DNA of 64,000 bases, from contig NZ_CP061316.1 in the NCBI RefSeq assembly GCF_018688335.1, forward strand, positions 620,001 through 684,000, written 5' to 3'. Made by a program: the position numbers and the translations under genes. This document shows positions 7,846 to 64,000 of this stretch, piece after piece (within the stretch, counting starts at the first letter, position 1; every line of letters begins with the position of its first letter). The notes below the pieces were generated by a model that saw only the letters and a program-made list of their open reading frames with translations, did not search any database and was not told the DNA's origin. Source of the stretch: Polynucleobacter sp. AP-Jannik-300A-C4 (lineage in GTDB: Bacteria; Pseudomonadota; Gammaproteobacteria; Burkholderiales; Burkholderiaceae).

Positions 7846-8822
7846 CCCTTCAGGTGGGTTCTGGGGTTGAAATCAAAAGCTTTCTCTAGTGATTGATAAG
7901 CTTCTTTTTGAGCATCGGTTTCTGCGCTAGGCAAAACAATATTTGGCACAACGTACAAGTCACCAGCTTCTTTGCTGGGGATACCTTTTTCTTTGAGTCT
8001 CATCTTGCGACCTGTTGCTGTGCCAGCTGGAATCTTTAATTCCAGAGTGGAGCCCGCAGGGGTAGGGATATTGACAGTAGTACCTAGTGCAGCTTCCCAT
8101 GGTGCTAGTGGTAAATCCAGGTAAACATCTTTTCCGTCGACACGGTAAATAGGGTTTGCATGAAAATCAATCTCAAGGTACAAGTCACCTGCACCACCTG
8201 TACCCATACCAGGACCGCCTTGCCCAGCTAAGCGTAAATTCTGTCCGGCCTTGATGCCCTTGGGAATGCTGACATCAAGTTTGCGTTCCTGTGTGCTGAC
8301 ATGACCATTGGCATCTTGCGCAGGCATATGCAGGGAAATGGTACGTTTTGCGCCGTTATAGGCATCAGCAAGATCAATCAGGATTTTGGCATGATGATCT
8401 TGACCTTTAAAGTTCATGCCCTGACGGGGGTTACCACCTCGACCACCTTGAGTATGGCGACCTCTGCCAAAAAGAGATTCAAAGAATTCACTTTGATCAC
8501 CTTCATAGCCACCACCAAATCCACCATGGCCACCACCAAAGTTGCCATCGGAATATTCAAATCCCTCATTCCAGTTCGGTGGAGGTGTGAAATCTTGGCC
8601 ATTTTTCCAATTGGCGCCCATGCGATCGTATGCCGCACGCTTCTCGGTGTCTTTCAGTACGGAGTAGGCTTCTCCGACAGCTTTAAACTGCTCTTCTGCG
8701 CCAGCTTCTTTATTCACATCTGGGTGATATTTGCGTGCTAGCTTGCGATAAGCCGCTTTAATTTCTGCTTCGGTTGCACCACGTGCTACACCGAGTGTTT
8801 CGTAGTAGTCCCTGAATTTCAT
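7842..8822 (-). CDS. cbpA: Curved DNA-binding DnaJ-type co-chaperone
   Basis: A 326-residue class II J-protein. The J domain occupies residues 1-70 with the catalytic HPD triad at 33-35. A Gly/Phe-rich linker spans about 95-140, and two beta-sandwich peptide-binding domains follow. There is no zinc-finger region, which separates it from DnaJ. CbpA delivers substrates to DnaK and can coat DNA in stationary phase. Its partner cbpM overlaps the 3' end. The 82-base region upstream to the terminator at 8905 must hold the promoter; TAGAAT preceded by TG is a possible extended -10, but I see no clear sigma-32 consensus. Confidence 0.93.
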   Translation of the reverse strand: MKFRDYYETLGVARGATEAEIKAAYRKLARKYHPDVNKEAGAEEQFKAVGEAYSVLKDTEKRAAYDRMGANWKNGQDFTPPPNWNEGFEYSDGNFGGGHGGFGGGYEGDQSEFFESLFGRGRHTQGGRGGNPRQGMNFKGQDHHAKILIDLADAYNGAKRTISLHMPAQDANGHVSTQERKLDVSIPKGIKAGQNLRLAGQGGPGMGTGGAGDLYLEIDFHANPIYRVDGKDVYLDLPLAPWEAALGTTVNIPTPAGSTLELKIPAGTATGRKMRLKEKGIPSKEAGDLYVVPNIVLPSAETDAQKEAYQSLEKAFDFNPRTHLKG

Positions 8823-8904
8823 AATCCTAATGAAGTCCTGATTGAATCAATAAGCTTCATTCTACAATCCCTCGGCTAAATTTTCGGTCTCTTTTTGAGT
8901 GTAG

Positions 8905-8928
8905 AAAAAGCGGGCATAAAGCCCGCTT
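8905..8928 (-). terminator. Intrinsic terminator of the leftward sugar-acid genes
   Basis: On the minus strand the arms AAGCGGGC and GCCCGCTT pair around a five-base loop and run into TTTTT. It lies 27 bases after the stop of the dehydratase gene and separates it from cbpA. Confidence 0.85.
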
Positions 8929-8955
8929 AGAATCAACCTGCTCCAGGATCTGGGC

Positions 8956-10503
8956 TTAGCTCATGACCCCGACTTGCCATGGTACGAATTCATAATCTCC
9001 AAGACCTAGCAATTCACTTTTAGAGGGTTCACCAGAGGCCGTTCTGAGAAAGAGCTCAAAAATCTGCTGCCCCATCTCCTGAACTGAAACCGCACCATCT
9101 AAGATCTCACCGCAATTAATATCCATGTCTTCGGTAAGCCGCTCATACATCGGTGTATTGGTGGCAAGTTTGATGCAAGGTGCTGGCTTTGATCCAAACA
9201 TGGAGCCACGCCCTGTAGTAAATGCAATCAAGTTTGCACCGCCAGCAATTTGACCTGTTGCTGAAACTGGATCAAAACCAGGTGTATCCATAAACACAAA
9301 ACCTTTGGCCGTTACTGGCTCTGCATACCGATACACTTCCATTAACGGTCCCGTTCCACCTTTCATGGATGAACCAAGTGATTTTTCAAAGATATTGGCT
9401 AGGCCGCCGATTTGATTCCCGGGACTGACTTGTCCATTGATCTGAACATCGCGACCGACAGAATATTCATCCTTCCACCAGCGAATACGTTGAATTAATT
9501 TCTCACCAATAGCCTTGCTTGCTGCTCGGCGGGTCAGTGTGTGTTCAACACCATAAATCTCCGGCGTTTCAGAGAGAATGCCGGTGCCACCATGACGCGA
9601 CAAAATATCAATCGCAGCGCCCAAGGCTGGGTTAGCGGTAATCGAAGAGAAACCATCCGAGCCACCACATTGCAAACCAACGCAAAGGTGGCTTGCAGAG
9701 ACAGTTTGCCTTTTCACTTTATTGGCTTCCGGGAGAAGTGCTTTTACAGCCTCAATTCCTGCTTCAATTGTTTTGCGTGTTCCACCAGTTTCTTGCATGA
9801 TGAAAGTGTGCAAAGTGGAATTTTCTTGCAGGGCTTCTTGCTCCATCAACCCTTTGAGTTGATTACGTTCACAACCCAGGCCGATGATCAGAGCGGCAGC
9901 TAGGTTAGGATGCTGCGCATATCCAGCCATGGTTCGGCGAAGCAGTTGCATAGGCTCGCCACTCATTTCCATTCCACAACCAATACCATGACTAAATGCA
10001 ACCACCCCGTCGATATTGGGAAAATCTTTTAAGTGTTCGGGGGTAAACCACGCTGCAATTTTGTTCACGACGGTTGCAGAGCAATTCACAGTAGATAGAA
10101 TGCCAATGAAATTGCGTGTACCTACTTTGCCATTGGCGCGCACGTAACCTTGAAAAGTCGCACGTTCAGTTTCTGGTAAGAGGGTAGTGGGTTTGTATTC
10201 GCTAGCATAGGCATAGTCGCGATCGAATTCACGAAACTCCGTGTTATGACTATGAACCATCGTGCCAGGCTCAATATCGGTATTGGCGAATCCTACGGTC
10301 ACGTTGTATTTCAGAATAGCTTCGCCCTTGAGAATTTTCTTTGCTGCAATTTTGTAACCTGCTGGCACTTGACTGCGGCTCGTGAAATTCTCACTTGGGA
10401 CTGCTTCACCAATTGCCACATCTACCCGTGCAACCACAATGTTGTCATTGGGATGGAGTCGAATAATTGGCCCGGCTAATTTTTTTTCAGATGTTTCAAT
10501 CAT
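8956..10503 (-). CDS. UxaA/GarD family sugar-acid dehydratase (altronate dehydratase type)
   Basis: A 515-residue enzyme in which the small SAF domain (about residues 1-100, IRLHPNDNIVVARVD) and the large GD_AH catalytic domain are joined, as in E. coli UxaA and GarD. The family removes water from aldonic or aldaric acids to give 2-keto-3-deoxy acids. Cysteines in the HGIGCG, GLGCE and GLQCGGSDG segments are the usual metal or cluster ligands. The substrate cannot be read from sequence; D-altronate, galactarate and related acids are possible. It follows the 3-hydroxyacid dehydrogenase gene after 32 bases on the same strand and ends at a terminator, so these two form a leftward operon opposite the SMP-30/regulator operon. 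Confidence 0.85.
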   Translation of the reverse strand: MIETSEKKLAGPIIRLHPNDNIVVARVDVAIGEAVPSENFTSRSQVPAGYKIAAKKILKGEAILKYNVTVGFANTDIEPGTMVHSHNTEFREFDRDYAYASEYKPTTLLPETERATFQGYVRANGKVGTRNFIGILSTVNCSATVVNKIAAWFTPEHLKDFPNIDGVVAFSHGIGCGMEMSGEPMQLLRRTMAGYAQHPNLAAALIIGLGCERNQLKGLMEQEALQENSTLHTFIMQETGGTRKTIEAGIEAVKALLPEANKVKRQTVSASHLCVGLQCGGSDGFSSITANPALGAAIDILSRHGGTGILSETPEIYGVEHTLTRRAASKAIGEKLIQRIRWWKDEYSVGRDVQINGQVSPGNQIGGLANIFEKSLGSSMKGGTGPLMEVYRYAEPVTAKGFVFMDTPGFDPVSATGQIAGGANLIAFTTGRGSMFGSKPAPCIKLATNTPMYERLTEDMDINCGEILDGAVSVQEMGQQIFELFLRTASGEPSKSELLGLGDYEFVPWQVGVMS

Positions 10504-10535
10504 GTAATGCTTTCGGTAAATAAGTTTTTTATTGA

Positions 10536-11474
10536 TTAGTCCATGTTCAATACATCAAAGGCTGCTTTCAACCTTTTTGAATACGAATTTGAGGTCTGCA
10601 AAACCTCTTCCGGTGTCCATTTTCTAAAGCCTTCGCCGGCTTTCATACCAGTCTTTCCATCATTCATTAATTGCACCACTTTTGGCGGTAGAGTGGTGAT
10701 ATTGGATAGGGATGGATAGATTTCTTTTGCTGCATTGGCCATGCCGTCCCAGCCAGAGATCTCTTTTTGAGTCATTGGACCAACTGCTGCATAACGAAAA
10801 CCAAAGCTATAGCGTACAGCATCATCGATATCTTCGGGGCTTGCAATTCCTTCTTGCACTAAAGAGAGTGCCTCTCTCATCAACGCATGCTGAATACGAT
10901 TAGCTAAAAATCCTGGAATATCTTTTTTCACTAGCACTGGTTTTTTATTGATAGCTTTATAAAGCTGGCATACCTGTTCCGCAAAGGCTAACTCTGTTTT
11001 TTCTCCTATCACAATTTCAACTAACGGAACTACTTCTGCTGGCATAAAGTAGTGAGCACCCATCATTCGGTTTGCGGTTTTCAGGTCGGCAGAGATTTTG
11101 GTAATTGGAAAGCCTGAGCTATTACTACCGATCGGTATGTGAGCTGGCACTTTGTCATCAAGGTAAGCAAAAATCTGTTTTTTTAATTCCAGATTTTCCG
11201 CAACCGTCTCAATTACCCAAGAGCAATCACCCCATAAATCCCACGCGTCCATGGTGGCGCTCACTTGAGCTGCTTCAATGGTGGCCTCATCAAGGGAAGC
11301 GTTCCCACCATGCAAGCCGATCTTAATTGCTAGTTGAGTAGCCTTTTTAAGACAGTCACCAGATTTCTCTTTGCTTCTTCCCAATATTGCAACAGGGATG
11401 TTATGAGAGATGAATCCCGCTGCAATTCCTGCTGCCATAGTTCCTGTGCCGATTATGGCTACATATTGACTCAT
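10536..11474 (-). CDS. 3-hydroxyacyl-CoA dehydrogenase family protein
   Basis: A 312-residue NAD-dependent dehydrogenase. The Rossmann motif GTGTMA is at residues 9-14. The catalytic region GAHYFMPAEVVPLVEI has the conserved His, and a GFLANRIQ segment carries the conserved Asn. Members of this short, single-domain group include 3-hydroxybutyryl-CoA dehydrogenases but also L-gulonate 3-dehydrogenase and carnitine dehydrogenase, which act on free hydroxy acids. Next to a sugar-acid dehydratase and a lactonase, the free hydroxy-acid role is the better inference. It is the first gene of the leftward operon. Confidence 0.8.
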   Translation of the reverse strand: MSQYVAIIGTGTMAAGIAAGFISHNIPVAILGRSKEKSGDCLKKATQLAIKIGLHGGNASLDEATIEAAQVSATMDAWDLWGDCSWVIETVAENLELKKQIFAYLDDKVPAHIPIGSNSSGFPITKISADLKTANRMMGAHYFMPAEVVPLVEIVIGEKTELAFAEQVCQLYKAINKKPVLVKKDIPGFLANRIQHALMREALSLVQEGIASPEDIDDAVRYSFGFRYAAVGPMTQKEISGWDGMANAAKEIYPSLSNITTLPPKVVQLMNDGKTGMKAGEGFRKWTPEEVLQTSNSYSKRLKAAFDVLNMD

Positions 11475-53461: not shown

Positions 53462-53788
53462 ATGAAAAATACTGAAGCAATACAAGCATTCGTTGCCCTA
53501 GGGCAGGAGTCACGCTTAAACGTTTACCGCCTCATTGTGCAAAAGGGCGATACAGGTTTAATGCCATCACAAATTCATGAGATGTTGGGTATTCCGAATG
53601 CAACGCTCAGCTTTCATCTAAAAGAGCTTTATCAGGCCAATCTCATTACTGTCGAGCGTCAGAGTCGTAACCTCATATACAGACCAAACCCTGGAATGGT
53701 TGAAGCGCTCAGTGGGTTTTTGCTGGCTAACTGCTGCGGGGGTAAATCCTGCGAATCACCAAAATCTTTAAAAAAGGCAAATGCTTAA
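53462..53788 (+). CDS. arsR: ArsR-type arsenic-responsive repressor
   Basis: A 108-residue winged-helix protein. The DNA-reading helix lies in IPNATLSFHLKELYQANL. There is no CxC pair in the recognition helix as in plasmid R773 ArsR; instead a C-terminal cluster NCCGGKSC gives Cys91, Cys92 and Cys97, similar to the independently evolved As(III) site of Acidithiobacillus-type ArsR. Arsenite binding should release the operator. The stop and the arsC start share one base (TAATG). Confidence 0.88.
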   Translation: MKNTEAIQAFVALGQESRLNVYRLIVQKGDTGLMPSQIHEMLGIPNATLSFHLKELYQANLITVERQSRNLIYRPNPGMVEALSGFLLANCCGGKSCESPKSLKKANA

Positions 53789-54267
53789 TGAAACAGTACA
53801 ACATTCTTTTTTTATGCACCCATAATTCTGCTCGATCCGTATTGGGTGAGGCTTTAGCATCAACACACCCAAGTGGTAAGTTCGTAGGCTATTCAGCAGG
53901 CTCAACACCGGGTACAAGTGTTAATCCAATTGCTGCTGATATCGCAGAGGAGTTGGGCATGGACCGCACACTCCTAAAGTCAAAAAGCTGGGATGTATTT
54001 GGTGGACCTAATGCCCCCCAAATGGATTTCATTATTACGGTATGTGATAACGCTGCTGGCGAGGTTTGTCCATTTTGGCCTGGTAAGCCTGCAACAGCGC
54101 ATTGGGGCTTTCCTGACCCATCGCAAGTGCAGGGTACTGATTTAGAAAAGAGAGCAGCATTTCATGAGGTCAAGAATGGTCTCAAGAAACGCTTAGATAT
54201 CTTGGCTGCAATGCCATTAGAAAAACTTGACTCTATGAGCCTTAAAGAAATTCATACTAAAGCATGA
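53788..54267 (+). CDS. arsC: Arsenate reductase, thioredoxin-coupled LMW-phosphatase type
   Basis: A 159-residue enzyme reducing As(V) to As(III). The anion loop CTHNSARS gives Cys10 and Arg16. Two further cysteines, Cys86 and Cys94 ([16 protein letters not shown]), correspond to the relay pair that hands electrons to thioredoxin in this class, and the HWGFPDPS block supplies the general-acid Asp. It is placed between regulator and efflux pump and overlaps acr3 by ATGA. Confidence 0.92.
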
Positions 54268-55316
54268 GCTCGATCACAAAAAAACTCTCCTTTCTGGATC
54301 GCTATTTAACGGTCTGGATTTTTGTTGCAATGGCGGTTGGTATTGCCTTAGGCCACTTTATCCCAGGTATGGAAGGATTTATTAATTCCTTTCAGGTCGG
54401 CACAACCAATCTCCCAATTGCTATTGGTTTGATCTTAATGATGTACCCACCGTTTGCTAAGGTGCGCTACGAAGACTTGCCCGACGTATTTAAAGATAAG
54501 CGCATCTTCGGTATATCCATTTTGATGAACTGGATTATTGCGCCGACTTTAATGTTCTTTTTGGCAATCACTTTTGTTCCTGACCAACCAGAATATATGG
54601 CTGGCCTGATTTTGATTGGCATCGCGCCTTGTGTTGCGATGGTCATTATTTGGAATGATTTAGCCAAAGGCTCCACTGAATACGCTGCTGGCTTAGTAGC
54701 ATTTAATGCCATTTTTCAAGTATTGTTTTTTAGTGTCTATGCTTATTTCTTCTTGACTGTATTGCCACCTTACTTTGGTCTCGCTGGATCAAATGTCAGC
54801 GTCGGTATGGGTCAGATTGCAGAGAGTGTATTTATCTACTTAGGCATTCCCTGCATTGCTGGAATATTGACTAGGGTAGTCATGCTCAAGTTCATGTCTA
54901 AGGAGCATTACCACGAGCATTTTGTGCCCCGCATTGGCAAGATCACTTTAATAGCTTTACTCTTCACCATCATCGTGATGTTTAGCCTCAAGGGCGGAGT
55001 GATCTTAACGCTCCCAATGGATGTTGTGACTATTGCCGTGCCATTGTTGGTTTTCTTTCTCATCATGTTCTTGCTCACTTTCTTGGTTACTGGCAAGATA
55101 GGAATCGATTACAAACGATGCTGCACGCTTTCCTTTACCGCTTCTAGTAATAACTTTGAGTTGGCTATTGCTGTTGCTATTGCAGTCTTTGGAATTAATT
55201 CTGGAGCAGCCTTTGCTGCAGTCATCGGCCCTTTGGTAGAGGTGCCCATCATGATTGGCTTAGTCACTGTAGCCTTATGGTTTAAGGAAAAGTATTTTCA
55301 AAAGGATGTATCTTAA
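54264..55316 (+). CDS. arsB: Arsenite efflux permease of the ACR3 family
   Basis: A 350-residue protein with about ten membrane helices, opening [23 protein letters not shown] as ACR3 pumps do. The essential Cys is present at 123 in [13 protein letters not shown], and the late [18 protein letters not shown] helix break is intact. It exports the arsenite made by ArsC. The name arsB is used loosely: it is ACR3, not the ArsB family. It abuts arsH with no gap. Confidence 0.92.
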
Positions 55317-56036
55317 GTGTTTGAGTCGCCACTGCAATATCCAGCTTTAGTAGAGGATCTTTTCCAGATTCCTGAATTGGAAAAATTGAGTATTCAGGCT
55401 GGTGATCATGCGCCTCGGTTTTTGCTACTGTATGGTTCACTGCGAGAGAGATCCTATAGTAGGCTCCTTACTTTCGAGGCGGCGAGGCTGTTAATCGCTA
55501 TGGGTGGCGAAGTCAAAATTTTTGACCCTACTGGTCTGCCTCTAGTTGATGGTGCACCCGATACCCATCCGAAGGTGCAGGAATTGCGCCAATTGGCTTT
55601 GTGGGCAGAGGGGATGGTTTGGACCTCACCGGAACGACATGGTGCTATGACCGGCTTGCTAAAAACACAGATTGATTGGATTCCTTTGTCTGAGGGTGCC
55701 GTTAGACCAACTCAAGGCAAAACTTTGGCGGTAATGCAGGTATGCGGGGGATCGCAATCCTTTAATGCGGTGAATCAAATGCGTATCTTGGGACGATGGA
55801 TGAGGATGATTACGATTCCCAATCAATCATCGGTTGCCAAATCTTTTACAGAGTTTGAAGAAGATGGGCGTATGAAGCCATCTTCCTTTTATGATCGCGT
55901 CGTTGATGTCATGGAAGAGCTCTATAAGTTCACATTACTGACTCGTGGAGTTAGCGAGTATTTGACGGATCGCTACAGTGAGCGAAAAGAATCTGCTCAG
56001 GAGCTATCTAAGAGGGTAAATCAAAGAGCAATATAG
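55317..56036 (+). CDS. arsH: ArsH NADPH-dependent FMN reductase
   Basis: A 239-residue flavodoxin-fold protein. The FMN phosphate loop is [10 protein letters not shown] near residue 40, and [19 protein letters not shown] and [23 protein letters not shown] follow, all diagnostic of ArsH. ArsH oxidises trivalent organoarsenicals or protects from redox stress. It starts with GTG immediately after the acr3 TAA, so its translation is probably coupled. It completes an arsR-arsC-acr3-arsH operon. Confidence 0.92.
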
Positions 56037-56165: not shown

Positions 56166-56489
56166 ATGACTTATACCATTCGCTATTACAGCCCCGATGT
56201 ATTGGAGCAAATTTTTGATTTACCTATTTCTTTGCAGGCGCGCTACATTGCTTTGACGCAGCGCATGATTGAATATGGGCCGCATTTAGGTTTGCCGCAT
56301 ACCGATTCGTTTGGCGGTGGTTTATTTGAGCTTAGGCTAAAAGGTATAGAGGGAATTGCAAGAGTTTTCTTTTGTACTGTGGTGGAGCGAGAGATTGTGA
56401 TGTTGCATAGCTTTATTAAGAAATCGCAGAAAACTCCTGATAAAGAACTAAGGCTAGCCAAGTTGAGAATGAGGGAAGTGAAATTATGA
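56166..56489 (+). CDS. RelE/HigB-like toxin (phage Gp49 type)
   Basis: A 107-residue basic protein of the phage-derived Gp49-like HigB group. A LGLPHTDSFGGGLFELRLKG core is followed by ARVFFCTVVEREIVMLHSFIKKSQKTP, where the conserved Arg and the hydrophobic-HSFIKKS strand are typical of ribosome-dependent mRNases of the RelE fold. The toxin precedes the antitoxin, as in hig modules, and overlaps it by ATGA. Probably an accessory gene. Confidence 0.88.
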   Translation: MTYTIRYYSPDVLEQIFDLPISLQARYIALTQRMIEYGPHLGLPHTDSFGGGLFELRLKGIEGIARVFFCTVVEREIVMLHSFIKKSQKTPDKELRLAKLRMREVKL

Positions 56490-56785
56490 AGACAAAGACA
56501 TTGACCCATAAACAAGCAGTTGGCAAGATGTTAAAAAATCCAGCAGTCAAGGCTGAGGTTGAGCGCTTAAATAAAGAGGAGTTTGCGATTCTTGATGAAA
56601 TACTGCAGGCTCGTAAAGCCGCAGGTTTATCTCAGGCTGAAGTGGCTCGCAGAATGGGTACACAAGCTCCAGCAATAGCCAGACTCGAAAGCTCTTTGGC
56701 AACTGGAAAGCACTCCCCAAGTTTAAGTACGCTTCGAAAGTATGCTGCTGCCTTAGGTAAGAAGGTCGAATTACACCTAGTCTGA
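56486..56785 (+). CDS. XRE-type HigA-like antitoxin
   Basis: A 99-residue protein. An N-terminal helical segment contacts the toxin; a Cro/C1-type helix-turn-helix spans about 38-92 (ILQARKAAGLSQAEVARRMGTQAPAIARLE region). It neutralises the toxin and represses the pair. Its stop is 27 bases from the convergent small membrane protein gene. Confidence 0.88.
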   Translation: MKTKTLTHKQAVGKMLKNPAVKAEVERLNKEEFAILDEILQARKAAGLSQAEVARRMGTQAPAIARLESSLATGKHSPSLSTLRKYAAALGKKVELHLV

Positions 56786-59453: not shown

Positions 59454-59525
59454 ATGACTGTAAAAACACCCAAGCGCTTAGCTGTTGCCCCCATGATGGA
59501 TGGTAACGACAACCCAATAAAATAG
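59454..59525 (+). pseudogene. dusA: 5' remnant of dusA, interrupted by island integration
   Basis: A 23-codon frame starting at ATG 59454 reads through KRLAVAPMMD, the N-terminal signature of tRNA-dihydrouridine synthase A (normally followed by WTDRHCRY). After the Asp codon it departs (GNDNPIK, stop at 59523) and no dusA sequence continues. Expected length is about 330 codons. A break at exactly this motif is the known result of integration by the dusA-specific tyrosine integrases, which use the 5' end of dusA as att site; the element usually restores a full dusA at its other end. The restored copy would be outside this window. Confidence 0.75.
59484..59501 (+). other. Probable att core of the dusA-targeted element
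   Basis: The 18 bases GTTGCCCCCATGATGGAT encode the last conserved residues VAPMMD before dusA homology ends. The core should recur as a direct repeat at the far end of the island, at the start of the intact dusA. Only one copy is in the window, so the exact crossover cannot be fixed. Confidence 0.55.
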
Positions 59526-59572
59526 GGGTTAAAATGGGTGTTGTGTGCACCAGTGTGTGCAGTTTTATTGGG
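59513..59572. repeat. Perfect 10-base inverted repeat next to the att core
   Basis: CCCAATAAAA (59513-59522) and TTTTATTGGG (59563-59572) flank a 40-base stretch that contains two near-copies of TGTGTGCA. Position just inside the island end suggests arm-type or excisionase sites of the integration system. It also overlaps the promoter region of the first island gene. Confidence 0.6.
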
Positions 59573-59596
59573 CCCCCTGTTTATACTGACTCGACT

Positions 59597-60226
59597 ATGA
59601 GCCCTCTCATCTGGATTCTAATTCTGTTTGCTGCCTTACTGCTTGGCTATGCAGTTGGAGTAGGGGGTCTATATCGATTCCAGAATCGTGGTGAAACTCT
59701 AGTTCGCCAAGCATTGATCAATTACATGCCAGCTGATTCTTGGCACCTATTAAACAATGTGACTCTGAAGCTGGAGAAAGGCACTACCCAGATTGATCAT
59801 GTCCTGATCTCTCGCTTTGGTGTCTTTGTCATCGAGACTAAGCATTACAAAGGATGGATCTTTGGTGATGGAAAGTCAAAAAGCTGGACTCAGGTGCTAT
59901 TTCATAGAAAGCATCGATTTCAGAATCCAGTACATCAGAACTATAGGCATGTGAAAGCAGTCCAGGCATTACTTGATTTCTTACCTCCAGAGCATGTCAC
60001 TGGCCTGGTTGTTTTCACCGGTGACTCCATATTCAAAACAGCTCCACCAGCTGGAGTCCATACTTTAGGTAGCATGATCTCTTATTTGCAAGGTCTTGAA
60101 GAGGAGACTTTGACAGAGAATCGTATGCAGTTTTGTGTTGGTAGGCTGGAATGTACTCGCCTGGCATTAACCAGGGAAACTGATATTGAGCACCGAACTG
60201 GCCTAGAGGCTAGGTACAAGAAATAG
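59597..60226 (+). CDS. Membrane-anchored NERD-domain protein
   Basis: A 209-residue protein with one N-terminal helix (LIWILILFAALLLGYAVGVG) and a NERD domain. The family pattern is complete: Glu33 in RGETLVR, TQIDHVLISRFGVFVIETKHYKG with Asp67, Glu80 and Lys82, which form the predicted restriction-endonuclease-like metal site. NERD domains are linked to DNA or RNA processing and, fused to helicases, to phage defence. The frame extends to 59534, but the ATG at 59597 begins directly before the membrane helix. It is the first gene of the island. Confidence 0.82.
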   Translation: MSPLIWILILFAALLLGYAVGVGGLYRFQNRGETLVRQALINYMPADSWHLLNNVTLKLEKGTTQIDHVLISRFGVFVIETKHYKGWIFGDGKSKSWTQVLFHRKHRFQNPVHQNYRHVKAVQALLDFLPPEHVTGLVVFTGDSIFKTAPPAGVHTLGSMISYLQGLEEETLTENRMQFCVGRLECTRLALTRETDIEHRTGLEARYKK

Positions 60227-62331: not shown

Positions 62332-62691
62332 ATGACAGATGATGAAGTCAATAAGTTGGAAAGTTTAGTCATAGATATGGCCATTGAGAGCTGGCGCTTT
62401 TCAAGACTTTTTGTCAGGGTTGCTGGAAAGTTGGATGCTGGTGAAACTGCAAAATACGTAAATCAACTTCGGTATTTTCAAAAGAAAGTCGAGGATGGGC
62501 TCAATCAGATTGGTTTAAAAGTTGTAAATCTAGAAGGTCAATCATTTGATGCTGGTATGGCGGTATCTGCAATCAATATTGAAGACTTTGAAGCTAGTGA
62601 TATTTTGATCGTTGAACAAATGATAGAGCCGGTCATTATGGGTGCTGATGGTTTAAGGCGGTCCGGTGCTGTGATGTTAAGGAAAGTTTGA
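62332..62691 (+). CDS. Short GrpE-like nucleotide exchange factor
   Basis: A 119-residue protein. Residues 1-62 are helical. From 58 on it parallels the GrpE head: IGLKVVNLEGQSFDAGMAVSA matches the GrpE pattern HGVE-x-I-x-x-x-G-x-x-FDP-x-x-HEAV, and the end GLRRSGAVMLRK matches the GrpE closing strand (RVLRPAMVVV). The long N-terminal dimer helix of real GrpE is mostly absent. Directly followed, after one base, by an Hsp70 gene, exactly the partner a GrpE would serve. The similarity is by eye and moderate; a different Hsp70 cofactor is possible. Confidence 0.65.
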   Translation: MTDDEVNKLESLVIDMAIESWRFSRLFVRVAGKLDAGETAKYVNQLRYFQKKVEDGLNQIGLKVVNLEGQSFDAGMAVSAINIEDFEASDILIVEQMIEPVIMGADGLRRSGAVMLRKV

Positions 62692-62692
62692 A

Positions 62693-64000
62693 ATGAAATA
62701 TGTCGGCATAGACTTAGGTACAACTAATAGCGCAATTTGCACTTATGACGGAGAGTCAGTCCGCCTCTATAAAAGTCCTGAGCAGCATGATGTCACGCCA
62801 TCTGCGATATTCATTGATAAGCGTGGAAATAGGTATGTAGGTGCCAGGGCCTATGATAGCTCTGCGAAAAATCCAGATAATTCAGCAACTTTATTTAAGA
62901 GATTGATTGGTACAAATACACCAATTACCTTGAAGGCTGTAGATAAGGTTATGACACCAGAGGAGTGCTCGGCTGAAATCCTTAGAGTACTTTTTTCTTA
63001 TCTACCAGAGGAAATTAGAAATGATGACTCTACAGGCACTGTAATCACAGTACCTGCAGCATTTAATCAAATGCAAAAAGATGCAACAATGGCAGCTGCC
63101 GAACTTGCTGGAATCGGTAAGGTTGCCCTAATGCAAGAGCCTGTTGCGGCAGTAATGTCTGTAATGAAGAGTAGAAAAATTGATGGCACATTCCTAGTCT
63201 ATGATCTTGGCGGCGGGACGCTTGACATTGCAATTGCGGAGAGCACCTCAGGTCGGGTTAGTCTTCTAGCTCATGGCGGAATTGCAATGTGTGGTGGGCG
63301 AGATTTTGATCGGATTCTTTTTGATAATGTTGTCAAACCATGGCTTGTCAGCAACTTCGACTTAGGTGAAGCTTTTGCCACCGAGCCTAAATTTAAAAAA
63401 TTACGCAATATTGCTCTTTGGGCTGCTGAAAAAGCAAAAATTGAGCTTTCTCAGAAAGAAGATGCAATTATTAGCATGCCTGAAACTGATATTGGAATTC
63501 AGGACGAGTCAGGTGCAGATATTTATCTGGATATCTCGCTTAGTCGTAACCAGTTAAACGATCTCATATCGCCCAAAATAGAAGAATCAATTGGTGCGAC
63601 AAGGGATGCTCTGGAAAAAGCAGGGCTAACACCCCATGATATTGAGAGGGTTGTATTTGTAGGGGGGCCAACAAACTATAAGCCCCTAAGAGATAAAGTT
63701 GCCTTTGAATTGGGAATTGCCCCTTCAACCGATGTCAACCCGATGACTGCTGTTGCAGAAGGTGCCGCAATTTTTGCAGAATCAATTGACTGGTCTACGC
63801 AGAATAGGTCAAGAAAAAATAGTCGAGGTGCTCTTAGTACTGGCGGAACTTTGAATCTTGGTTTTAACTACATAGCCAGAACGCCAGATCAAAAATCCAA
63901 AATTATTGCCATGGTTTCAGGAAGTGTTGCGCCTGGTACAGAGTTTCAAATTGATAATTTAGACACTGGATGGTCTTCTGGTCGGATTACTTTGGTTGAT
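62693..64000 (+). CDS. Divergent Hsp70 family chaperone (C-terminus outside window)
   Basis: 436 residues are present. The actin-like ATPase domain is complete: phosphate-1 GIDLGTTNSAI (5-15), KRLIG (69-73), phosphate-2 VYDLGGGTLDIA (169-180), GGRDFDR (201-207) and adenosine motif VVFVGGPTNYKPLR (320-333), then NPMTAVAEGAA. After residue 362 the DnaK linker (VLLLDVTPLS) is absent and replaced by a polar Ser/Asn/Arg stretch; the next segment does not resemble the DnaK peptide-binding domain start. It is therefore a specialised paralogue, not the housekeeping DnaK, cotranscribed with the GrpE-like gene inside the island. Confidence 0.9.
   Translation, partial: MKYVGIDLGTTNSAICTYDGESVRLYKSPEQHDVTPSAIFIDKRGNRYVGARAYDSSAKNPDNSATLFKRLIGTNTPITLKAVDKVMTPEECSAEILRVLFSYLPEEIRNDDSTGTVITVPAAFNQMQKDATMAAAELAGIGKVALMQEPVAAVMSVMKSRKIDGTFLVYDLGGGTLDIAIAESTSGRVSLLAHGGIAMCGGRDFDRILFDNVVKPWLVSNFDLGEAFATEPKFKKLRNIALWAAEKAKIELSQKEDAIISMPETDIGIQDESGADIYLDISLSRNQLNDLISPKIEESIGATRDALEKAGLTPHDIERVVFVGGPTNYKPLRDKVAFELGIAPSTDVNPMTAVAEGAAIFAESIDWSTQNRSRKNSRGALSTGGTLNLGFNYIARTPDQKSKIIAMVSGSVAPGTEFQIDNLDTGWSSGRITLVD

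Follow-up and report, generated by a model that had tools for sequence, protein, structure and literature searches.

A mobile operon predicted to encode a dedicated Hsp70 machine that lacks the HPD contact and serves a tagged envelope protein

The right-hand end of a 64,000-nucleotide stretch of the Polynucleobacter sp. AP-Jannik-300A-C4 genome (hereafter the window; positions 620001-684000 of a single contig of 1,998,164 bases, NZ_CP061316.1) carries the start of an operon whose first two genes encode a short GrpE-like protein and an Hsp70. The first-pass annotation of this window had described the two genes as separated by one base, which is the case, and had placed the rest of the Hsp70, a J-protein and an effector beyond position 64000. 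In the sequence that continues past this edge (locus L007; adding 57999 to an L007 position gives the extended frame), the Hsp70 reading frame runs on to its full length and is followed by genes for an AAA+ ATPase, a membrane protein and a J-like protein (Table 1). The expected effector was not identified there, the additional genes being further machinery in the form of the AAA+ and membrane proteins. All five operon genes share a strand and are closely packed, their ends either overlapping slightly or leaving short gaps. On their 3′ side are a 130-codon open reading frame (ORF), an HNH protein and then, on the opposite strand, a primase/helicase and integrase block beside a gene that we take, from its translation, to be dusA.

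Table 1. Coordinates of the operon and of the island that carries it (unprefixed positions are in the window unless marked as extended; L007 is the continuation locus).
Feature	Position	Strand	Evidence
GrpE-like protein, 119 aa	62332..62691	+	Foldseek/AlphaFold2, profile match to GrpE, Pfam below cut-off
Hsp70, 830 aa; window carries first 436 codons	62693..64000, on to 65185 extended (L007:4694-7186)	+	PF00012
AAA+ ATPase, 478 aa	L007:7183-8619	+	Pfam AAA E 1.1e-32; PADLOC IetA E 5.2e-27
One-helix membrane protein, 208 aa, N-terminal tag KKGFAGLSSLESKV	L007:8631-9257	+	
J-like protein, 548 aa	L007:9273-10919	+	
HNH protein	L007:11333-12193 (69332-70192 extended)		HNH part against type IV restriction model, E 8.6e-20
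D5-type primase/helicase	L007:12450-13796	-	D5_N E 6.6e-22
Tyrosine integrase	L007:15961-16998	-	E 1.3e-21
Left att-like repeat, left island end, copy of dusA 5′ part	59472..59501	.	26/30 identical to 75140-75169 (extended)
Right att-like repeat, inside dusA	~L007:17141 (75140-75169 extended)		
NERD-domain protein, island cargo	59534..60226	+	Pfam NERD E 1.2e-32

The same set of genes recurs in other bacteria. A scan of a genome collection with the Hsp70 C-terminus returned 116 relatives, of which 80 were kept, and viral contigs added four more, giving 84 loci; the 51 in which the Hsp70 is intact and enough flanking sequence is available are treated as complete. Among these, the GrpE-like gene is present in 51, the J-like gene in 50, the AAA+ gene in 48 and the membrane protein gene in 47, the loci with a missing part being L084, L091, L092 and L093. 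Because the GrpE-like/Hsp70 pair is kept in every complete locus, a chance pairing is excluded, and the two genes overlap by 4 bases in 64 of 75 listed pairs.

The GrpE-type head that had been proposed for the 119-residue protein is borne out by profile, model and structural comparison. Its sole Pfam match is to GrpE (PF01025) and lies below the curated score (12.3 versus 25.8 bits, E 0.14). A profile of 57 family members, when compared with 28 canonical GrpEs, gives an E value of 7.9e-5 and a probability of 61, with a score (33.2) above the maximum of 19.4 obtained over 60 column shuffles; with the same profile, GrpE is also the only match at E <= 1 in a sequence search of the PDB (E 0.14). 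An AlphaFold2 model built on the 57-row alignment (predicted local distance difference test score 95.1) contains helices at residues 3-31 and 36-59, followed by a beta wing. In a Foldseek search of the PDB with this model, ranks 1-12 are all GrpE or GrpE-complex entries, with template modelling scores by query of up to 0.59; rank 1 has an E value of 6.3e-4 and is the only one below 0.001, ranks 2-12 spanning 0.002 to 0.76. As modelled, the protein is thus a GrpE head in which a short helical pair replaces the long coiled-coil stalk, and the alternative that it is unrelated to GrpE is ruled out by these three lines of evidence. Elsewhere in the genome there are one canonical GrpE and two full-length Hsp70s, which are read as DnaK and HscA, so neither island protein is the sole representative of its family in this host.

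The Hsp70 partner combines a conventional catalytic domain with an unconventional remainder. Its ATPase domain (residues 1-372) is complete, as annotated (PF00012, E 1.9e-59), and is identical to that of the genome's own DnaK at 128 of 357 aligned residues (36%). The phosphate-1 and phosphate-2 motifs are each kept in 79 of 82 family Hsp70s. By contrast, the hydrophobic DnaK-type linker, already reported missing from the window sequence, is found in none of the 82 family members and in 22 of 29 DnaK/HscA proteins with the same regular expression. Following the ATPase domain are an insert of about 115 residues (372-488), beta-rich by eye, a stretch resembling the beta part of the substrate-binding domain (SBD-beta; 488-590) and a C-terminal tail. 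The match of residues 488-590 to the DnaK substrate-binding beta domain is weak (hhalign E 8.6e-4, probability 24), and a sequence search of the PDB with the Hsp70 C-terminus returned nothing useful. What had first been described as a divergent C-terminal start looks like an inserted domain. Two loci depart from this layout in gene structure or copy number: in L014 the Aeromonas Hsp70 is split into two ORFs (8091-10588), and the L091 genome (Mesosutterella multiformis, G500) has six Hsp70 C-terminal matches, three of which are pieces of one stretch.

The most distinctive property of the family concerns the interface between the Hsp70 and its J-like partner. In Escherichia coli DnaK, R167, which precedes the NEPTAA motif, meets the aspartate of the histidine-proline-aspartate (HPD) motif of J proteins; this contact, on which Suh et al. 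are said to have carried out genetic work in 1998, is the defining property of J proteins. In the island-type Hsp70s, the R167-equivalent residue is alanine in 78 and glycine in one of the 79 sequences in which it could be placed (82 searched), versus arginine in 29 of 29 DnaK/HscA controls. Nearby, the asparagine equivalent to N170 is glutamine in 79 of 79 family Hsp70s, and the tyrosine of VPAYFN is alanine in all 80 members that have the motif, compared with tyrosine in 28 of the DnaK/HscA controls. On the partner side, HPD is absent from all 66 J-like N-termini that were located among 78 proteins, and the J-like protein has no match to the Pfam J domain (PF00226) at E <= 1. Its predicted structure has helices at residues 10-13, 22-33, 38-49 and 51-59, in an order that resembles the J domain, and the N-terminal stretch is probably a J domain by descent. 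The J-protein expected beyond the edge is therefore represented by a J-like gene, though not by a classical one. Judged from these alignments, both sides of the HPD-arginine contact are missing together across the family. A sequence search of the PDB with the J-like profile gave nothing useful. Some J-like proteins (L011 and L009) are extended at the N-terminus by residues whose cysteines are spaced as in a zinc ribbon, and a segment resembling this extension forms a separate 105-residue ORF upstream in the congener G359.

The membrane proteins consist of an N-terminal segment, a hydrophobic helix and a variable outer part. Among 60 of them, one helix is found in 49, none in 10 and two in one, and the outer part matches PG_binding_1 in 21 cases, a lytic transglycosylase domain (SLT) in one and TonB_C in one. 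If the wall-binding part lies outside, the N-terminal segment would be cytosolic. It is this segment that carries a shared tag, GFAGLSSL, which in most members takes the form GF[AS]GLSxLxSDV or a close variant. Of the 1189 called genes, 86 carry the tag, every one of them belonging to the membrane class, and none of 764 neighbour genes or 860 control ORFs has it; it is present in 86 of the 91 unfused members of the class, a count that is partly circular because the profile used to collect the class includes the tag, and that in this respect tells against the interpretation given below. A profile of the outer part only recovers 86 called proteins, of which 79 are tagged, and misses seven tagged ones. 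In 16 loci, a number that includes nearly identical ones, two or three tagged proteins occur, and in L012 one tagged protein lies beside the operon on the opposite strand. The DNA pattern of the tag matches once in the Polynucleobacter genome, within the operon, and 20 times in ten carriers (9 in the operon and 11 elsewhere, the places being judged by reading), as against seven matches for a reversed control pattern; in the seven of these 11 outside matches that were inspected, no credible N-terminal tag was seen.

The J-like and membrane proteins are functionally tied, since natural fusions join them. There are four such fusions, each linking a J-like part to a membrane helix (one in L015, one in L079 and two in L091, the helix of one L091 fusion being read by eye), and in all four the J-like part stops short of the beta domains that normally form its C-terminus. 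Docking of the tag on these beta domains is accordingly weakened as a candidate, all four fusions being devoid of the domains and two of them keeping an internal tag; an unfused J-like protein of 363 residues (L094) also lacks the domains. The Hsp70 is the likeliest reader of the tag, because tagged proteins also occur where the AAA+ protein is not found (L091). The single L091 locus in question contains three GrpE-like genes and two of the J-like/membrane fusions. Overall, there is strong reason to think that the operon encodes a dedicated chaperone machine whose membrane client comes from the operon itself. The most likely client is the tagged membrane protein, whose gene lies past position 64000 and was thus out of sight of the first-pass annotation.

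Membrane proteins of this kind invite comparison with Zorya, in which the peptidoglycan-binding domain of ZorB is required for defence (PMC11890865). As in ZorB, a peptidoglycan-binding domain follows a single helix; the setting is one of defence genes, and one operon copy lies beside zorA. It is conceivable, if doubtful, that the anchored membrane protein is itself an envelope sensor, detecting DNA injection or wall perturbation and signalling through its tag to the Hsp70 and AAA+ proteins, and the further step, in which the Hsp70/AAA+ complex would inactivate the phage genome or remodel a host target without any need for cell death, is to be regarded with the same reserve. The position of the tag ahead of the helix, which would place it in the cytosol if the wall-binding part is outside, and the fusion of J-like to membrane protein in four cases both suit such signalling. 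However, no ZorA-like motor, nuclease or helicase is recognised in the operon core, ZorC, ZorD and ZorE are likewise not part of it, Hsp70 machinery being present instead, and 39 of the 60 membrane proteins, that of Polynucleobacter included, have no PG_binding_1 match. This sensor would in any case be a variant of the defence reading and overlaps with the explanation preferred here, namely a chaperone machine that serves the tagged protein.

The operon lies on a mobile island inserted at dusA, which confirms the integrated island with a NERD protein that had been proposed: att-like repeats flank it, the NERD gene lies inside it, and the site is empty in relatives. dusA was sought in 41 genomes of the genus (the present one included) and is present in 38; 30 loci were returned, 29 of them from other genomes. 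The pseudouridine synthase that lies to the left of the island here ends where dusA starts in four of these 29 (L194, L196, L198 and L199), is more distant or fragmented in L209, L215 and L217, and in the other loci neither it nor an integrase occurs within the 1.5 kb examined, apart from L207, where a different integrase occupies the dusA site. In L194, the left-flank match to the window stops at about 59500 and the right flank restarts at about 75140-75150. Because these flanks join where the island sits here, the insertion amounts to about 15.7 kb, from the NERD gene through the integrase. The operon Hsp70 occurs in three of 186 genomes of the genus and the J-like gene in three of 299 genomes sampled in the phylum (own genome included in both), and the congener G359 carries the operon at another genomic place. 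A fixed core locus is ruled out by this rarity and by the empty site, and the pair is mobile, as had been supposed. Within the island, the NERD protein weakly resembles MAD6 and PglW in their NERD regions, and the HNH protein on the 3′ side of the operon is possibly a second defence gene.

The position of the operon between the NERD gene and the replication and integration genes might suggest a housekeeping helper that assembles or stabilises the island integrase, primase or NERD protein and forms no system of its own. Against this, relatives of the operon recur beside Tn7-like genes, on plasmids, in a tRNA-Phe island and at a different place in the congener, and the part that recurs consists of the operon's own genes. 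Such a role is disfavoured and very improbable.

In a rapidly built tree of 70 Hsp70s, which represent 14 phylum-level groups (49 of the 70 from Pseudomonadota), sequences from Pseudomonas, Acidovorax, Pusillimonas and Comamonas fall together; over all groups there are 18 label changes, versus a shuffle mean of 19.8 (as low in 7 of 200 shuffles), and for Pseudomonadota alone 10 changes versus 17.7 in shuffles, a clustered arrangement. As read from this tree, some vertical descent is overlaid by exchange between groups. None of 50,697 phage records matches. In E. coli, a DNA search with a Serratia copy, which gives a lower bound, finds operon copies in at least two of 5,426 genomes, HeN100 and NH-21; the NH-21 copy (L223, 15008-16207) begins at an IS1 element, has a shortened AAA+ gene and has no annotated GrpE-like and Hsp70 genes. 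There is also a longer form of the operon with extra genes after the J-like gene (L011, L014, L018, L027, L029, L034-L037, L042, L046 and others), the extras being of a 214-residue type in 18 loci, a 165-residue type in seven and a 217-residue type in six, together with a second tagged membrane protein; one representative of each of these three types has no Pfam match above cut-off.

Relatives of the operon lie near Zorya, BREX-2, RADAR, Hachiman, Hma or Hhe-type genes. On the Polaromonas plasmid pPNAP01, the operon is flanked by zorA and, on its opposite side, by BREX-2 genes and a helicase/AAA pair that reads as Gabija-like. On Shewanella and Aeromonas plasmids the operon adjoins tns genes of a Tn7-like element; in E. 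coli HeN100, where it belongs to a tRNA-Phe island, its neighbours are rdrB and a remnant of dptF, and the cut copy of NH-21 is near a dptF remnant. On a Sinorhizobium plasmid, a distant Hsp70 relative that is interrupted by a transposase gene adjoins genes for a DNA methyltransferase and a UvrD/endonuclease pair. For a matched comparison, 20 carriers with a contig of more than 200 kb were taken and the multicopy L091 was dropped, leaving 19 contigs. From each, the closest neighbours of the operon that encode 200 residues or more were taken, to a maximum of six per contig and 96 in all, with four operon-accessory clusters excluded; an equal number, 96, came from a single 20-kb stretch placed at random on the contig concerned. 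At E <= 1e-15, 178 PADLOC families are matched near the operon versus 9 in the control, figures that count families rather than proteins, many of the families being redundant models for a single protein. At E <= 1e-80, the 96 genes near the operon include two HamA, two HamB, type I methyltransferase and specificity genes, AbiEii, C3a139 and two PDC models. The control matches are mad3-like (three members), DEDDh (two), PDC-S48 (two), RtcR-type (one) and RT-protease (one). Among eight large neighbours picked by hand at other loci, six match HmaA, HmaB, HmaC, Hhe/PDC-S37, Orf5/HEC-06 and PDC-M26A. The recurrence beside defence genes that the first-pass annotation proposed to count is thus borne out across several systems, and the neighbouring genes make an anti-phage role of the operon probable.

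The same genes could also be viewed as a mobile module for envelope stress or stress tolerance, which would fold or turn over peptidoglycan-linked membrane proteins, have no part in phage defence and merely be gathered by islands. The PG_binding_1, SLT and TonB_C domains of the membrane proteins (21, one and one of 60) would suit such a module, as would the membership of the Hsp70 and AAA+ proteins in quality-control families; moreover, no toxin or nuclease is recognised in the core, and a few neighbours have no defence match. On the other hand, varied defence systems adjoin the operon repeatedly in unrelated hosts, the matched comparison gives 178 versus 9 families, and the operon is rare and patchy in its distribution, being limited to three genomes in each of the genus and phylum samples. 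A stress module of this type is accordingly judged unlikely. The preferred reading, to which we assign a probability of roughly 0.6, is a dedicated, HPD-free Hsp70 machine that serves a tagged envelope protein, is mobile and is probably anti-phage.

A working cycle can be proposed for such a machine. The J-like protein would bring the Hsp70 to the membrane protein, much as the natural fusions hold the two together. The Hsp70 might then bind the tag as a fixed client site, in the way that HscA, which binds one motif on IscU, offers a precedent for an Hsp70 serving one client through a fixed motif. The GrpE head would reset the Hsp70, and the AAA+ ATPase could remodel or extract the released membrane protein, the cycle as a whole keeping the envelope protein silent. 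Envelope damage by a phage, or a burden of unfolded protein during its infection, would draw the Hsp70 away from the tag, and the freed membrane protein might assemble and stop the infection or the cell. That the chaperone itself is the phage sensor, with a tagged, peptidoglycan-linked effector as its standing client until infection overloads or strips the chaperone and the released effector shuts the cell down, is offered tentatively. As part of that proposal, and no less speculatively, the Hsp70 and its J-like partner may have swapped the near-universal HPD-arginine contact for some other interface.

Several observations weigh against the preferred reading, besides the limits on the tag and family counts noted above. 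The anti-phage role is proposed from neighbourhood evidence; near the Vibrio and Aminobacter plasmid copies no clearly named defence system is seen, two of the eight hand-picked large neighbours match nothing, and no nuclease, toxin or other killing enzyme is recognised in the operon core. The parts list is not invariant, given that three of the 51 complete loci lack the AAA+ gene and four lack a separate membrane protein, and the 208-residue Polynucleobacter membrane protein has no peptidoglycan-binding match in a Pfam scan. Two of the four fusions have no tag and two have it internally, so that the Hsp70 is no more than a candidate receptor of the tag. The substrate-binding stretch of the Hsp70 is a modest match (score 33.9, versus a shuffle mean of 15.7 and a maximum of 30.5), and the J-like N-terminal profile resembles J domains weakly (P 0.0033, probability 10, score 18.3 versus 17.3 as the highest shuffle score); when the J-like protein is compared in full with J domains by hhalign, E is 0.13, and Foldseek finds no confident match for its model (best E 0.1). 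The spread is also partly vertical, because the Pseudomonadota are clustered in the tree.

Like the DnaK-DnaJ-GrpE and HscA-HscB systems, the operon combines an Hsp70 ATPase core with a GrpE-fold partner and a J-like partner. Unlike them, it has a J-like protein without HPD, an Hsp70 without the matching arginine or hydrophobic linker and with an insert before its SBD-like stretch, and a short, stalkless GrpE; it is also mobile and includes an AAA+ partner and a tagged membrane protein. The loss of the HPD contact on both sides, in a family that otherwise preserves the ATPase core, a GrpE-like partner and the operon, makes another way of triggering an Hsp70 testable. If the defence reading is true, a chaperone machine with its own client tag would join the known immune mechanisms, and the tag would provide a sequence handle for membrane partners in other genomes.

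Chaperone genes have been placed in predicted conflict systems before. Kaur et al. 2020 (PMC7159879) report that about 14% of the neighbourhoods of GAP1-N2 GTPases contain Hsp70 and GrpE genes alongside DnaJ-FNIII proteins, the second theme of those systems, so the presence of an Hsp70 triad in a predicted conflict system has a precedent. Both are predicted conflict systems in which an Hsp70, a GrpE-type protein and a DnaJ-domain or J-like protein share one neighbourhood. GAP1-N2 systems are, however, GTPase-centred, with FNIII-DnaJ or tetratricopeptide repeat (TPR) proteins, and occur mainly in actinobacteria and firmicutes (PMC7159879), whereas the island operon has an AAA+ protein and a tagged membrane protein, and 49 of the 70 Hsp70s in its tree come from Pseudomonadota; no GAP1-N2 GTPase was found among 13 island proteins scanned with Pfam or as a recurring core gene, a scan that did not extend to four smaller ORFs in the replication block or to the majority of neighbours at other loci. 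Type III CoCoNuT systems also have an Hsp70-like protein with nucleotide-binding and substrate-binding domains (NBD/SBD) in a predicted antiviral operon, but their CnuD is tied to McrB-type GTPases and is predicted to bind RNA and to hydrolyse ATP poorly (PMC11090510), while the island Hsp70 keeps its ATPase motifs and no McrB-type GTPase was found among the same 13 proteins with Pfam.

A likeness to IetAS lies in the AAA+ protein, which matches IetA models over its AAA half (E 5.2e-27) and FtsH models better (1.1e-35); no protease of the IetS type or other kind was matched among the operon proteins in Pfam and PADLOC scans. Phage sensing is linked to an Hsp70 system in bNACHT25 as well, which senses phage through the host's own DnaJ (PMC12169576), whereas the island brings its own set. 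In their main texts, the DefensePredictor study (PMC13092281), the Tn7-cargo survey (PMC8649781) and the E. coli defence-island survey (PMC10121019) make no mention of chaperones, DnaK, Hsp proteins, heat shock or GrpE. No description of the operon was found in the literature searched, which mostly excluded subscription papers and bioRxiv, so a published account is possible. The operon is set apart from the described systems by its partners, the lost J contact and the tag.

Further genes lie around the operon and elsewhere in the window. In four loci a recurrent gene upstream of the operon presumably encodes a WYL-type regulator. A helicase-like protein of about 1,810 residues is found upstream in L018, L025 and the G359 locus, the three being alike by eye, and the L018 copy matches Hhe and PDC-S37. 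To the left of the island, the genes at 53462-56036 are, by eye, what we take to be an arsenic operon, with an ArsR-like regulator, a low-molecular-weight phosphatase-type reductase, an ACR3-type pump and an ArsH-like flavoprotein. Between this and the island, and outside the latter, a HigB/HigA-like toxin-antitoxin pair can be read by eye at 56166-56785.

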